Below are positions 50,827-57,105 of a stretch of 64,000 nt of DNA, piece after piece. Position numbers and translations under genes: made by a program. Every line of letters starts with the position of its first letter. Positions within the stretch are counted from its first letter, which is position 1. The DNA lies in contig NZ_JAPFQM010000006.1 of NCBI RefSeq assembly GCF_026241205.1, forward strand, positions 682,001 to 746,000. Direction: 5' to 3'. The stretch is from Thermomicrobium sp. 4228-Ro (GTDB lineage Bacteria > Chloroflexota > Chloroflexia > Thermomicrobiales > Thermomicrobiaceae). The notes below the pieces were generated by a model. That model was not told where the DNA came from. It worked only from the letters and a program-made list of their open reading frames with translations, and made no database searches.

Positions 50827-52185
50827 ATGCCGGCGCCGCTCCTTCCCGTCTTACATGCCGCTGTTTTGCCGGTCGATGCGCTGCGCGCTTGGCATCTCGA
50901 TCCACCGTTGACGGTTCTCCTCCTGAGTATCGCGGCTGGCTATCTCTTGGCCCGGCGGGCCGCAGCGCGGGCTGGCCGGGCACTCCCGTCACGCTGGCGT
51001 GTCGTCGCGTTTCTGGGAGGGCTCGAGGCCGTGGCGGTCGCGCTGATGGGGCCGCCCGATCATGGCAATGCGGTGCGGTTCAGTGTCCACATGGCGCAGC
51101 ATACGCTGTTGATGCTCGTCGCTGCACCGCTGCTGGCGCTCGGGCAACCTGCTCGCACGCTCGTTCGCAGCTTGCCGCCACCAGCACTTCGCTGGCTAGC
51201 CGGACGACGCGCCCTCGTGGCGTCGCTCAGGGTGATCGCGCATCCCATCACCGCCTTCCTTGCGGTGGTCGGGCCCTTCGTGCTCTGGCACTATCCGCCG
51301 TTCTACGAGGCGGCGCTCCGGATCCCTGCACTGCACGAACTGGAACACGCGAGTTTTCTCGGTGGGGCGTTCCTGTTCTGGTGGGTGTTGCTCGACCCCT
51401 TCCCGCGGCGTCGCCGCTTGTCGGCGACGACTGCCCTCCTGCTCGTTTTCGCGACCTGGATGGCGACCGATCTGGTCTGTGCCACGGTGACGCTGGCTCC
51501 ACGCCCCTTCTATCGTTCCTACACCGAGACCGCTGCGCTCTGGGGGATCGATCCACTTGCTGACCAGCGGCTCGGCGGGGCGATCATGTGGGTCGGTGGT
51601 GGTGGCCTCTACGCGGTGGTGCTCCTCGTGCTGCTCGTGCGGTCTGCGCGACCAGGGACGGTCGCGAGGCGTGCGCGTGCGTCGGAACCGGCTCGTCTTC
51701 TCTTTCCGATCGCAGTGGCAGCGCTTGCGGTGGTGCCGCTCGTCTTTCTGAGCTTGGGTGTCATCGCGCCGGTCATGGCACGCGATGGTGACGTCGTGCA
51801 GTGGGAACGCGAAGATCCGCAATCGTTCGAGCGCCGGGTCGAGGCGTTCGTCGCGGCGTATCGAGTCAGCGAGCGCGATGGGCGACCGGTCGTCGCTCCA
51901 CCGGCCGGCGGCGAAGCCCTGCTCGTCGGACGAGCGGAAGGCTGGTACCCGCTGCTGGAACTTCAGCGTGGCGTCGAGTACCAGCTGGTGGTCTCGGCTC
52001 GCGACAGCGCACACGGACTGTTTGTCGATCTCGGTGGACGGCGGCTCACCGTGCGGGTCCTCCCGGGCCACGTGGCGGTGGTCCGCATTCGAGCAGATCG
52101 GGCAGGGGAATATCCGATCCTCTGTACGGAACTGTGCGGCCCCACGTTCCGGTCGATGACCGGGCTCGTCATCGTGAAAGAGTAG
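50827..52185 (+). CDS. CtaG-type oxidase assembly protein fused to a CuA-like domain missing one histidine
   Basis: A 452-residue protein. Residues about 1-300 are the caa3_CtaG membrane domain, with about seven helices and His/Asp/Gly segments such as GPPDHGNAVRFSVHMAQHTLLML and PFVLWHYPPFYEAAL. Residues about 330-452 are a cupredoxin closely related to the neighbouring subunit II (both share PVVAPPAGG, Y(R)V.ER/EL.DG and V..VLPG.V.V.R). Copper ligands: H396, C433, E435, C437 and M444 are kept, but the His position is F441. The RBS GGGGGTGA precedes ATG 50827. This domain may relay Cu or bind it weakly. Confidence 0.85.
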   Translation: MPAPLLPVLHAAVLPVDALRAWHLDPPLTVLLLSIAAGYLLARRAAARAGRALPSRWRVVAFLGGLEAVAVALMGPPDHGNAVRFSVHMAQHTLLMLVAAPLLALGQPARTLVRSLPPPALRWLAGRRALVASLRVIAHPITAFLAVVGPFVLWHYPPFYEAALRIPALHELEHASFLGGAFLFWWVLLDPFPRRRRLSATTALLLVFATWMATDLVCATVTLAPRPFYRSYTETAALWGIDPLADQRLGGAIMWVGGGGLYAVVLLVLLVRSARPGTVARRARASEPARLLFPIAVAALAVVPLVFLSLGVIAPVMARDGDVVQWEREDPQSFERRVEAFVAAYRVSERDGRPVVAPPAGGEALLVGRAEGWYPLLELQRGVEYQLVVSARDSAHGLFVDLGGRRLTVRVLPGHVAVVRIRADRAGEYPILCTELCGPTFRSMTGLVIVKE

Positions 52186-52715
52186 CGCGCAGCTCGGTCG
52201 CCGCGCACTGCTCTCTCCGGGGAGAGGACGGTTCCCCCGAGAGGAGGGCCGGTGCGAGAGGACGCTCGGTCCAGCACGGGCGACGAGTGATGGACTGGCC
52301 GGTCCATGGTCCGTGCCGGAGCGTGGCGACGGCGCCTGTGCGAGTGGCTGCCCTCTGGTTCGCGAGACGACCGCTCGTCCTCATCTCATCTGGCGCGACA
52401 GCGTCAGTCCGGGGAGCCACTGGGCTCGGGAAGCTCGTGGTGTGGGAGCGGCTGCCGCGAGCCAGGTCGGTGCGACGCTCGCGAGACCGACGAGACGCCC
52501 TCCGCGGTATCGTGGACGCCGGGACCAGAAGGAGCGGTACAGGACTGTCGAAGAAGTGTGTGTCGATGTGGACGATTAGATTCCGGTATTCTGTACATAC
52601 CGGTTTTGAAAGTATTGTTACATTCTTGTAACGCTGCTCGTGGTCACTGCCCCTTGACACGGATTGTCGTCAACCGACACTATAAGAACAGAACTCCTGA
52701 CGGAAGGAGAGTAGG
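52186..52715. other. Promoter region of the oxidase genes with two dyads
   Basis: About 530 bases without a credible gene. From about 52560 to 52690 the composition becomes AT-rich. Inverted repeat 1: CCGGTAT (52583-52589) and ATACCGG (52597-52603), followed by TTTTG. Inverted repeat 2: GTTAC (52617-52621) and GTAAC (52628-52632). A perfect -35 hexamer TTGACA lies at 52656-52661 region with TATAAG about 21 bases on, a spacing too long for a normal promoter, so the exact -10 is unsure. The start of the small gene is at 52716. Confidence 0.5.
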
Positions 52716-52874
52716 ATGGAGCATCGTGACGAGCGAGCCGAGCGCATCCCCTGGCCGCAGGTGCTCCTGGACGACATCTTCCTCATCCTGATGGCGGGAC
52801 TGGTCGTGCCGACCCTGTTCTATCTGATCTGGGGATTGATCGATCTCGGCTTCATCCCGCTCTTCGGTCGGTGA
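52716..52874 (+). CDS. 52-residue single-helix protein, candidate oxidase small subunit IIa
   Basis: A short gene with ATG 52716 and GGAAGGAGAGTAGG before it; TGA at 52872-52874. The peptide has a charged N-terminus (MEHRDERAERIPWPQ) and one membrane helix (IFLILMAGLVVPTLFYLIWGL). It ends 25 bases before subunit II. Thermus ba3 oxidase has a one-helix subunit IIa of 34 residues encoded beside subunit II, so this is the best explanation (family knowledge plus position). I see no conserved motif to prove it. Confidence 0.65.
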   Translation: MEHRDERAERIPWPQVLLDDIFLILMAGLVVPTLFYLIWGLIDLGFIPLFGR

Positions 52875-52899: not shown

Positions 52900-53451
52900 A
52901 TGGCCAGCCGGGTGAGTACGCTGGCGAAACCGCGCGGTGTCTGGTGGGAGGGGTTGGGTCGTGACGAGCGGCTCTGGGTGTGGTTGACGGTCATCTGGGG
53001 CGTCGCGATGTTCCTGATGATCGCCTTCGTCTGGCCGCTCATCGGGCAGGAGCAAAACCGGCTGAGTTCGTACCGGGTTGACCCAGCGACCTTCGCTTCC
53101 CAGGCGGAGGCGTTCATGAAGCAGTACCGAGTCGGGGAGCTCGATGGGGTGCCGGTCGTGGCACCACCGGCTGGTGGGGACGTGTACCTGGATGCGCGCG
53201 CCTTCGCGTGGCAGCCGGTGATCCGGCTCAAGCGCGGTGAGACGTACCGGTTCTTGATCAGCTCGCGCGACGTGCAGCACGGTTTCTCGCTGGTGATGCC
53301 ACCGCACAGTATCAACGTGCAGGTTCTGCCGGGTTACGTGACGGTGCTGAGGCTGACGCCCGAAGAGACCGGAGAGTTCCCCCTGATCTGCAACGAGTAC
53401 TGCGGGCTCGGTCATCATCTGATGATCGGACGGGTCATCGTCACAGAGTGA
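52900..53451 (+). CDS. cbaB: heme-copper oxidase subunit II with intact CuA site
   Basis: A 183-residue subunit with one N-terminal helix (about residues 27-48) and a cupredoxin CuA domain. Ligands are H127 (VQHGF), C164, E166 (backbone), C168, H172 and M175 in CNEYCGLGHHLM. A single helix and compact CuA domain are typical of B-family (ba3) enzymes. ATG 52900 is preceded by GGGAGGT. It is a paralog of the CtaG fusion's C-terminal domain. Confidence 0.92.
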   Translation: MASRVSTLAKPRGVWWEGLGRDERLWVWLTVIWGVAMFLMIAFVWPLIGQEQNRLSSYRVDPATFASQAEAFMKQYRVGELDGVPVVAPPAGGDVYLDARAFAWQPVIRLKRGETYRFLISSRDVQHGFSLVMPPHSINVQVLPGYVTVLRLTPEETGEFPLICNEYCGLGHHLMIGRVIVTE

Positions 53452-53460
53452 GGTGCGGCC

Positions 53461-55194
53461 ATGGCGACGATCGGTGCGATGCGACGGTGCGAGGTCACAG
53501 GGCTCTCGGTCGACCGGCACGCCGAGCGTCTCATCATGCTGAATGCGGTAACAGCAGTCGTTTATTTGACGATCGGCGGTATTCTGGCGTTGCTCATCGC
53601 GCTCACTCGCTGGCAGGCTGTCCATCTTCTCGCTCCGCAACGGTTCTACGAGTTCGTTTCGACGCATGGCATGGTGATGCTGATCTTTTGGATCCTCTTT
53701 TTCGAGGTTGCCGGGTTGATTTTCGCCAGCACAGTACTGCTCAGTGCGCGGATGGTCATCCCCTGGCTCGGTTGGCTTGCCTACTGGCTGATGCTCGGAG
53801 GATCCGTCGTCGCCACGCTCCTGATGCTGAGCGGGCGTGCGACCGTCATGTTCACGTCGTATCCGCCGCTGCGTGCCGAGACGCACTGGTATTACGCAGC
53901 CGTCCTGGTGTTCGCGGTCGGCGCGATCCTGGCAGTGGTGCACTTTTTCCTGAACATCGTCGCCGCCCGGCTGCGTGGCGAGGTGGAGAGTCTTCCGCTC
54001 TTCACCTTCGCGTTGATGGGAGCCGCCATCATCGCGCTCTGGTCTTTGGTGTCGGGTGCGCTGGCTCTTTTCCCAGTCTGGCTCTGGACGCTCGGTGTCA
54101 TTCCCGAGGTCGACCCTGGTATTTACCGCTTGCTCTACTGGGGACTGGGGCATGGGGCTCAGCAAGTGAATCTCGCCGCGATGGTCGGTGTCTGGTACGG
54201 GCTGGCGAGTCTGACGACCGGCGCGCGGCCGCTCAATGAGGGGTTGAGCCGGATCGCGATCGTGCTGTACGTCCTGTTCATCAATATGGGCGCGATGCAT
54301 CATCTGCTGGTCGATCCCGGGCTCGGGACCTGGGTGAAGAACGTGAATGCGAGTTACTTCATGTACGCGGCGGTGATGGGAAGCTTGATCCACGCCTTCA
54401 GCATCCCGGCCTCGATGGAGTTGGCATTGCGTGAGCGCGGGTACCGGCGTGGACTCTTCGAGTGGTTGCGTCGTGCGCCCTGGGGTGAACCGGGTTTCGC
54501 GGCGCTCGTCGTGAGCATGATCCTCTTCGGGCTCCTCGGTGGCATCAGCGGGGTCATCATCGGTGGGCCGCAGGTGAACATGATTTCGCACAATACCTTG
54601 CTGGTTCCAGCCCACTTCCACATGACCGTTGTCGCTGGGACGACAACAGCGTTCATGGGGATCGCCTACTACCTGGTGCCGCTGATCTTCCAGCGGCAGC
54701 TCTTGTTCCGCCGGCTTGCCCAGTGGCAGCCGTACGTCTACGGGTTCGGCATGTTGATCTTCGGCATCGGCATGGGGTTGGCTGGGCACTGGGGCGTTCC
54801 CCGACGACACTGGGATATCACGTTCTCGACAGCTCCGGCACTGGGCATGAACCTGATCGACCTCCGCCCCGAGATCGCGGTCTTCCTGGCGATGATGGGG
54901 ATCGGTGGAATTATCGCTGTCGTGGGCGGTGCGATGTTCGTGTTGGTCGCGGTCGCGACCGTTTTCGTCGGACAGCGGACACCGCGGCCGGTCGTCGGTC
55001 GAATCGTTCCGGAAGCGTTCAGCCCGTATCCGGTGATCGCTGGTGGAAGCGGGGAAGCGGCTGCGTCTGGCGAGCACAGTCGCTTTGAGGTTCCTGGCAC
55101 GCTGGTCATTTCGGTCGCTTTCCTCATCTTGTTCATTTTCCTCTATGGGTTCTCGTGGTTCGAATTGAGTCGGGTGCCGTGGAAAATCGGGTGA
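53461..55194 (+). CDS. cbaA: B-family heme-copper oxidase subunit I with Gln replacing the active-site Tyr
   Basis: A 577-residue, about 13-helix catalytic subunit most like Thermus ba3 subunit I (shared VISHNTLLVPAHFH and GAMHHLLVDPG patterns). Low-spin heme ligands are H69 and H387; high-spin heme ligand H385; CuB ligands H231, H280 and H281. In standard oxidases CuB-His is followed four residues later by Tyr (H-x-x-x-Y, GHP.VY), cross-linked to it; here it reads GHGAQQV, so position 235 is Gln. Y270 in the helix before HH is a possible substitute. Function could be NO reduction or O2 reduction. Confidence 0.9.
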   Translation: MATIGAMRRCEVTGLSVDRHAERLIMLNAVTAVVYLTIGGILALLIALTRWQAVHLLAPQRFYEFVSTHGMVMLIFWILFFEVAGLIFASTVLLSARMVIPWLGWLAYWLMLGGSVVATLLMLSGRATVMFTSYPPLRAETHWYYAAVLVFAVGAILAVVHFFLNIVAARLRGEVESLPLFTFALMGAAIIALWSLVSGALALFPVWLWTLGVIPEVDPGIYRLLYWGLGHGAQQVNLAAMVGVWYGLASLTTGARPLNEGLSRIAIVLYVLFINMGAMHHLLVDPGLGTWVKNVNASYFMYAAVMGSLIHAFSIPASMELALRERGYRRGLFEWLRRAPWGEPGFAALVVSMILFGLLGGISGVIIGGPQVNMISHNTLLVPAHFHMTVVAGTTTAFMGIAYYLVPLIFQRQLLFRRLAQWQPYVYGFGMLIFGIGMGLAGHWGVPRRHWDITFSTAPALGMNLIDLRPEIAVFLAMMGIGGIIAVVGGAMFVLVAVATVFVGQRTPRPVVGRIVPEAFSPYPVIAGGSGEAAASGEHSRFEVPGTLVISVAFLILFIFLYGFSWFELSRVPWKIG

Positions 55195-55293: not shown

Positions 55294-57105
55294 ATGCGTG
55301 AGTCGGGAGAGGGACAGCCAGGACTTCGCTGGCTCGCGCTTGCTACCGCTCTTGCAGGGTATTCGCTGATCGTTATCGGCGGAACGGTCCGCGTGACCGG
55401 TGCAGGGTTGGGATGCGGTCCGGAATGGCCGCTCTGTAATGGGCGCATCGTTCCCGGGTGGGATCTCTTGGCCTGGATCGAGTACGTGCACCGGTTGATC
55501 GCGCTCGCGGTAATCCTCCTCACCGGCATAGTTGCAGGAGTGGGCTGGCGAGCGCGGGTATCGGACCGCTGGGTCAACCGGCTCCCGCTTGTCGCGGTCG
55601 GATTGGTTCTCTTGCAGGCGCTCCTCGGTGCGGTGACCGTTTGGACGCACCTCGAAGCAGCGGTCGTCGCGCTGCATCTCGGTGTCGCGCTGAGCTATCT
55701 CGCGGTCGCCCTCATCCTGACCTTCCGAACCTGGTTTCCCGCTCTCGCTCGCCACGCCGTGCACTCACCGCTCCGCCCCTGGCTGCTGATGTCGCTCGTC
55801 ACGGTGTTCGTCCTGATGCTCAGCGGTGCGTATACGGCTAAGCGTGGGGCCGGGTTCGCCTGCCCAGAGTGGCCGTTCTGTGGCGGCTTTTGGCTCCCGA
55901 CCGGCTGGACGAATGTCGACGTGCATCTGACGCACCGGTTGCTCGCGCTGGTCGCCATTTTCTCGGTCGTTTTGCTGGCCTGGCAAGCCCGGCGCGTCCG
56001 CAGCGATGCACCGTGGGTCGTCGGGCTGACGTCGGCAGCAGCTGTCCTCATGGTGGCGCAGGTCTTCGTCGGGGCAGCCAATATCTGGTTCCACCTGCAT
56101 CCGGCCGTGAGCGTCGCGCATCTCGCGGTCGCGACGGTCATCTGGGTGCTCCTCGTCCTGGCGACGCTGGCCGACCGCGCGTTGCCGGTGCTCGAGCGAG
56201 AAAGCTCGCGGGCAGGAGCGCGCGTGGAGCGCAACCGCCCCCTCCGGGCGGTGCTCCGCGACTATGCTGTCCTGACGAAGCCGGGCGTGATGGTCTTGTT
56301 GCTCGTCACGACGCTCTGCGCGATGCTCGTGGCGGCTCAGGGACTGCCCGCGCTCGGCACGCTCTTCTGGACGCTGGTCGGTGGGGCGCTGGCGTCTGGG
56401 GGTGCAGGCGCTATCAACCACTATGTCGATCGGGACATCGACGCGGTGATGACGCGGACGCGACGCCGGCCGTTGCCGGCTGGTCGGCTGGCGCCGGAGT
56501 ACGCGCTCGTTTTCGGCGTGGTGCTGAGCGTGCTGGCAGTCTATGTGCTCACGGCGTTCGTGAACCCGGTCGCAGCGCTCCTGTCGCTCGCGGGAAATCT
56601 CTTCTACGTCTTCGTGTACACCATCTGGCTCAAGCGGTCGACGCCGCAGAATATCGTGATCGGTGGTGCGGCGGGTGCGGTACCACCGCTGGTCGGTTGG
56701 GCGGCGGTCACCGGACAACTGAGTGTCGCTGCGCTGCTGATGTTCCTGCTCGTCTTCGCCTGGACACCACCGCACTTCTGGGCACTGGCCCTCTACAAGC
56801 GCGGCGACTACGCCGCAGCGGGGGTACCGATGCTGCCAGCCGTGCGGGGCGAGGAGGAAACGCGGCGGCAGATTCTCGTCTACACGGCCGCGATGGTGCT
56901 GACGAGCCTCCTCTTCTATCCGCTCGGGGTGCTCGGTCTACCCTATCTCGTCGCAGCAGCGGCTCTCGGCGCCCGCTTCCTCTGGCTGGTGGCTCGGCTC
57001 TACCGCGAACGGAGCGATCGCCTCGCGAAGAAGGTCTTCCTGTACTCGATGCAGTATCTCGGGCTGCTCTTCGCGGCGATGGTCGTGGACGCGGTGGTGT
57101 TTTGA
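55294..57105 (+). CDS. ctaA/ctaB: heme A synthase (CtaA)-protoheme IX farnesyltransferase (CtaB) fusion
   Basis: A 603-residue protein joining two steps of heme biosynthesis. Residues about 10-310 are CtaA/Cox15-like: GGTVRVTGAGLGCGPEWPLCNG with paired cysteines, WIEYVHRLIAL and VHLTHRLLAL histidines, and a second ACPEWPFCGGF. Residues about 320-600 are CtaB: INHYVDRDIDAVMTRTRRRPLPAG (Mg-prenyl binding), TPQNIVIGGAAGAVPPLVGWA and TPPHFWALALYK. It makes heme O and heme A from heme B, supporting use of an A- or O-type heme in the oxidase. ATG 55294. Confidence 0.95.
   Translation: MRESGEGQPGLRWLALATALAGYSLIVIGGTVRVTGAGLGCGPEWPLCNGRIVPGWDLLAWIEYVHRLIALAVILLTGIVAGVGWRARVSDRWVNRLPLVAVGLVLLQALLGAVTVWTHLEAAVVALHLGVALSYLAVALILTFRTWFPALARHAVHSPLRPWLLMSLVTVFVLMLSGAYTAKRGAGFACPEWPFCGGFWLPTGWTNVDVHLTHRLLALVAIFSVVLLAWQARRVRSDAPWVVGLTSAAAVLMVAQVFVGAANIWFHLHPAVSVAHLAVATVIWVLLVLATLADRALPVLERESSRAGARVERNRPLRAVLRDYAVLTKPGVMVLLLVTTLCAMLVAAQGLPALGTLFWTLVGGALASGGAGAINHYVDRDIDAVMTRTRRRPLPAGRLAPEYALVFGVVLSVLAVYVLTAFVNPVAALLSLAGNLFYVFVYTIWLKRSTPQNIVIGGAAGAVPPLVGWAAVTGQLSVAALLMFLLVFAWTPPHFWALALYKRGDYAAAGVPMLPAVRGEEETRRQILVYTAAMVLTSLLFYPLGVLGLPYLVAAAALGARFLWLVARLYRERSDRLAKKVFLYSMQYLGLLFAAMVVDAVVF

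Follow-up and report, generated by a model that had tools for sequence, protein, structure and literature searches.

The window, a 64,000-nucleotide stretch of Thermomicrobium sp. 4228-Ro DNA, very probably (probability about 0.88, judged from sequence) encodes an eNOR, the Gln-type NO reductase of the heme-copper superfamily, whose subunit I is a protein of 577 residues. Its most likely function is CuA-fed reduction of NO to N2O. eNOR reportedly features in work by Hemp and Gennis from 2008. The protein adds a member to an already described family: eNORs of Chloroflexi were reported in 2015 for Ardenticatena maritima (PMC4653789) and again in 2022 (PMC8756737), and a passage of PMC11388526 lists eNOR as biochemically characterised, citing Murali et al. 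2024. The features of the locus, with coordinates in the window, are as follows.

50827..52185, plus strand: CtaG-type assembly protein with an eNOR subunit II copy fused to it (Caa3_CtaG, 206 bits)
52615..52633, no strand: possible regulatory element TTGTTACATTCTTGTAACG (GTTAC-N6-GTAAC), about 80 bp 5' of the small open reading frame
52716..52874, plus strand: single-helix peptide of 52 residues, with similar DNA in the corresponding position of 13 loci
52900..53451, plus strand: probable eNOR subunit II, 183 residues (COX2, 25.1 bits, cut-off 22)
53461..55194, plus strand: very probable eNOR subunit I, 577 residues (COX1, 205 bits; six His ligands, Gln235, inside the Gln clade with support 100/100)
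55294..57105, plus strand: CtaA-CtaB fusion of heme A synthase and heme O synthase (COX15-CtaA, 130 bits; UbiA, 244 bits)

The reading frame of subunit I is intact, and the Pfam COX1 match lies well above its cut-off of 34.8 bits. The best solved relatives are the Thermus thermophilus ba3 oxidases (E ~1e-42), and no solved NO reductase is found among the matches to solved structures. The six histidines that the first-pass annotation had put forward as ligands (H69, H231, H280, H281, H385 and H387) all stand opposite ligand histidines of ba3. The same annotation placed Gln where the catalytic Tyr should stand, four residues after H231, and the alignment confirms this: Q235 falls opposite the ba3 cross-link Tyr (GHGAQQV versus GHPIVYF). 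Gln occupies position 235 in 37/37 relatives aligned over their full length (identity at least 43%), whereas Tyr is present in all 28 B-family oxidases of the far set, so neither chance nor a sequencing error accounts for Gln235. Positions that are invariant in the Gln clade and differ from the oxidases include Q234, Q235, N237 and A240, on the helix that carries the first CuB histidine, together with H311; E82 is a clade-specific carboxylate.

The comparison with T. thermophilus ba3, given in published residue numbers (the alignment printout ran 6 higher), shows a shared fold, the six histidines and the K-channel pair Y248/S309, matched by Y246 and S308 here. The two proteins differ where ba3 has Tyr237, Trp239 and Thr312 and the Thermomicrobium protein has Gln235, Asn237 and His311; H311 is also the position of the A-family K-channel Lys. 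A structure model built from 12 sequences has a mean pLDDT of 56, too poor for a distance from Q235 or Y270 to CuB. A separate variation is seen in two T. thermophilus plasmid eNORs from two strains (L049 7983-9668 and L050 7983-9665), in which HFK replaces HFH and a ligand position of the low-spin heme carries Lys. Both of these Thermus genes have an Rrf2 regulator and a DUF542 gene as neighbours.

Relatives were collected from genome contigs and plasmids as well as from genomes of Chloroflexota; their identity to the 577-residue protein is bimodal, with a near set at 43% or more and the next set at 34% or less. Those at 92-93% identity are from Thermomicrobium and include T. roseum DSM 5159, whose enzyme carries the locus tags TRD_RS10980/RS10985. 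Placement in a heme-copper tree had been proposed as a check in the first-pass annotation; by maximum likelihood, the Gln proteins form a single clade (support 100/100) beside the B-family oxidases and apart from the B-family O2 reductases. Its members come from Thermomicrobiales, other Chloroflexota families, two T. thermophilus plasmids and one Defluviimonas plasmid. The published eNORs likewise have Gln, six His and a CuA cupredoxin subunit II directly upstream; as in this clade, they occur in Chloroflexi, Thermus and Proteobacteria and show a link to genes for nitrite reductase. The assignment to eNOR rests on the diagnostic residue, the architecture and the host groups named in PMC8756737.

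The operon around subunit I agrees with this description and adds to it. In subunit II, a single helix at the N-terminus is combined with a cupredoxin domain whose CuA motif is complete (H...C-x3-C-x3-H-x2-M), and the CuA ligands are conserved across the eNOR subunits II aligned; such a subunit upstream of subunit I has been described for eNOR (PMC8756737). The 52-residue peptide has no Pfam match and is a probable small subunit, by analogy with subunit IIa of ba3. In T. roseum, Thermus and Defluviimonas, too, short open reading frames are annotated directly 5' of subunit II. An element resembling GTTAC-N6-GTAAC is found in the corresponding position of four other Thermomicrobium loci, and the TTGTTACATTCTTGTAACG inverted repeat is a possible candidate for a regulatory element. 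A second inverted repeat, CCGGTAT-N7-ATACCGG, precedes the operon in the same region (52580-52633) and is seen in the window only.

Two genes distinguish the locus from the published eNOR operons. The operon here includes the CtaA-CtaB fusion, whose product also scores above the cut-off of heme o synthase models, and Thermomicrobium has in addition the CtaG protein, joined to a subunit II copy that is CuA-deficient. Residues 306-452 of this fusion are 41% identical to the subunit II of the window, and the copy lacks the second CuA histidine (CTELCGPxFRxM) in 5/5 Thermomicrobium sequences (the window, L001, L002, L003 and L047). In the other loci tested, outside Thermomicrobium, the CtaG match stops short of the subunit II-like part. 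It is conceivable, though unlikely, that the fusion represents a new kind of eNOR assembly protein in which the copy would donate copper or act as a placeholder during assembly of CuA or CuB. Beyond the CtaA-CtaB gene, a radical SAM gene of the TIGR04053 type is found in three loci (L003, L004 and L006, ~11.7-12.8 kb) and lies in pieces at the same place in L001 and L002; a gene of this type is also found near the Thermus nitrite reductase.

In the mechanism proposed for the enzyme, a soluble donor would deliver electrons to the CuA of subunit II, from which they would pass to the low-spin heme on H69 and H387 of subunit I and on to the binuclear site, formed by the high-spin heme on H385 and by CuB on H231, H280 and H281. 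There, two molecules of NO would be converted to N2O and water. Gln235 would leave this site without the redox-active Tyr that oxygen reductases use for O-O bond cleavage. Protons would probably arrive through a modified K-channel comprising Y246, S308 and H311; this pattern fits, without proving, the single proton channel published for eNOR (PMC8756737). The CtaA-CtaB fusion may supply the hemes, presumably of the a/o type.

The genomic company of eNOR also points to nitrogen oxides. A sample of 400 Chloroflexota genomes contains 28 with eNOR and 372 without. By TIGR02376 matches over the cut-off, nirK is present in 19/28 of the former and 32/372 of the latter (Fisher p 1e-12, a value that ignores relatedness), and the link persists outside the family to which the window belongs (p 1.4e-9, again ignoring relatedness). 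The gene nosZ shows the same tendency (11/28 versus 16/372, p 1.6e-7, likewise ignoring relatedness), and any of nirK, nirS or nosZ is found in 25 of the 28 eNOR genomes as compared with 50 of the other 372. At the level of genera, 11 of the 15 with eNOR have nirK or nirS. In one genome (G139) nirK directly adjoins eNOR, and a Thermus plasmid carries a nitrite reductase gene ~4.5 kb from its eNOR.

Could the protein instead be an unusual B-family O2 reductase, fed by CuA in the same way, whose cross-linked Tyr is lost or replaced in function by Y270? The B-family fold, the CuA subunit II and the public records, which annotate eNOR subunit I as a cbb3-type cytochrome c oxidase, speak for such an enzyme, as does retention of Y270 in 34/37 clade members. 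However, B-family O2 reductases have their Tyr four residues after the first CuB histidine, and the Gln found there is clade-invariant. Y270 does stand ten residues before the HH pair, as the first-pass annotation noted, but the role of alternative Tyr suggested for it does not survive the conservation pattern: three relatives (L025-L027) carry Ile there, and true oxidases carry Phe or Leu. A C-family-like oxidase can be set aside in the same way. The C-family Tyr lies in helix VII at HH minus 6, as in the Pseudomonas stutzeri cbb3 structure, and this position is Ile274 here, four residues from Y270. The association of eNOR with nirK and nosZ is a further argument against an oxidase, and the genome of the window has separate A- and B-family oxidases, both with Tyr, so that O2 reduction does not need eNOR. 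An O2 reductase is highly improbable. Scarcely probable at all is another Tyr-less NO reductase of B-family origin, be it bNOR, sNOR, gNOR or nNOR, even though these enzymes and eNOR share the pairing of a CuA subunit II with a Tyr-less subunit I. The residue at the Tyr position distinguishes them in a comparison that took in bNOR, sNOR and gNOR: PMC8756737 (Table A4) gives Y for O2 reductases, E for cNOR and qNOR, N for sNOR, D for gNOR and Q for eNOR, which is recognised by this Gln. The Glu type and the Asn type are thus excluded by Gln235. The first-pass annotation had the type right in proposing a Tyr-less NO reductase derived from the B-family, but its lead towards bNOR fails. The enzyme of that name (formerly CuANOR, PMC11388526; also qCuANOR, CbaA of Bacillus azotoformans) shares the B-family-derived subunit I and the CuA subunit II but has Asn at the cross-link position (PMC3475470), and since it is Gln that the literature uses to recognise eNOR, the protein belongs to that family and not to bNOR. 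The genome's own sNOR-like protein (L016), which like L107 of Ruegeria pomeroyi is of the NorSY-type sNOR kind, is also Tyr-less with a CuA subunit II, but it differs in its Asn, is only ~25% identical and stands apart in the tree on a very long separate branch.

A quite possible alternative concerns the role of the enzyme rather than its chemistry and overlaps with the main eNOR explanation: eNOR may serve mainly in NO detoxification or redox balance and not as a step of respiratory denitrification. Family profile searches of the window's genome find no NirK over the cut-off and no NirS, and a family search finds no intact narG. A generalised role is allowed by PMC8756737. Near position 501280 of contig G000:C1 (L103), a short C-terminal piece of narG that contains an in-frame TAG is followed by narH-like sequence split over frames; the region looks like a decayed nitrate reductase operon or the product of assembly errors, and decay would suit detoxification. 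Against this reading, nosZ is present in the genome of the window (C6:534644-536455) and full-length in 4/4 sampled Thermomicrobium genomes with eNOR, so that N2O made from NO could feed respiration. Moreover, eNOR, the sNOR-like genes and nosZ share one 918-kb megaplasmid in T. roseum DSM 5159 (NC_011961.1), and in the window's genome they share one contig (G000:C6, 907 kb). The most likely role of eNOR in Thermomicrobium, as far as gene content can indicate, would be conversion of NO to N2O, whether respiratory or protective.

The sNOR-like gene on that contig (L016 1396-2880, minus strand; G000:C6:13499-14827) encodes a second heme-copper enzyme without the Tyr, which is replaced by Asn. 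It is accompanied by genes for a CuA subunit II and a formate/nitrite transporter as well as by a CtaG gene, and its relative on the R. pomeroyi megaplasmid (L107) sits in an sNOR-like operon.

Since the family itself is already described, the points of interest that are left are the annotation, the fused CtaG and the Lys of the Thermus eNORs. The latter two offer testable leads, the one to copper assembly and the other to heme ligation. The label of cbb3-type oxidase is a misannotation, and NO reduction in Thermomicrobium and many other Chloroflexota can therefore escape gene surveys. Thermomicrobium is probably capable of reducing NO to N2, since nosZ and another NOR-like enzyme share the replicon of eNOR.
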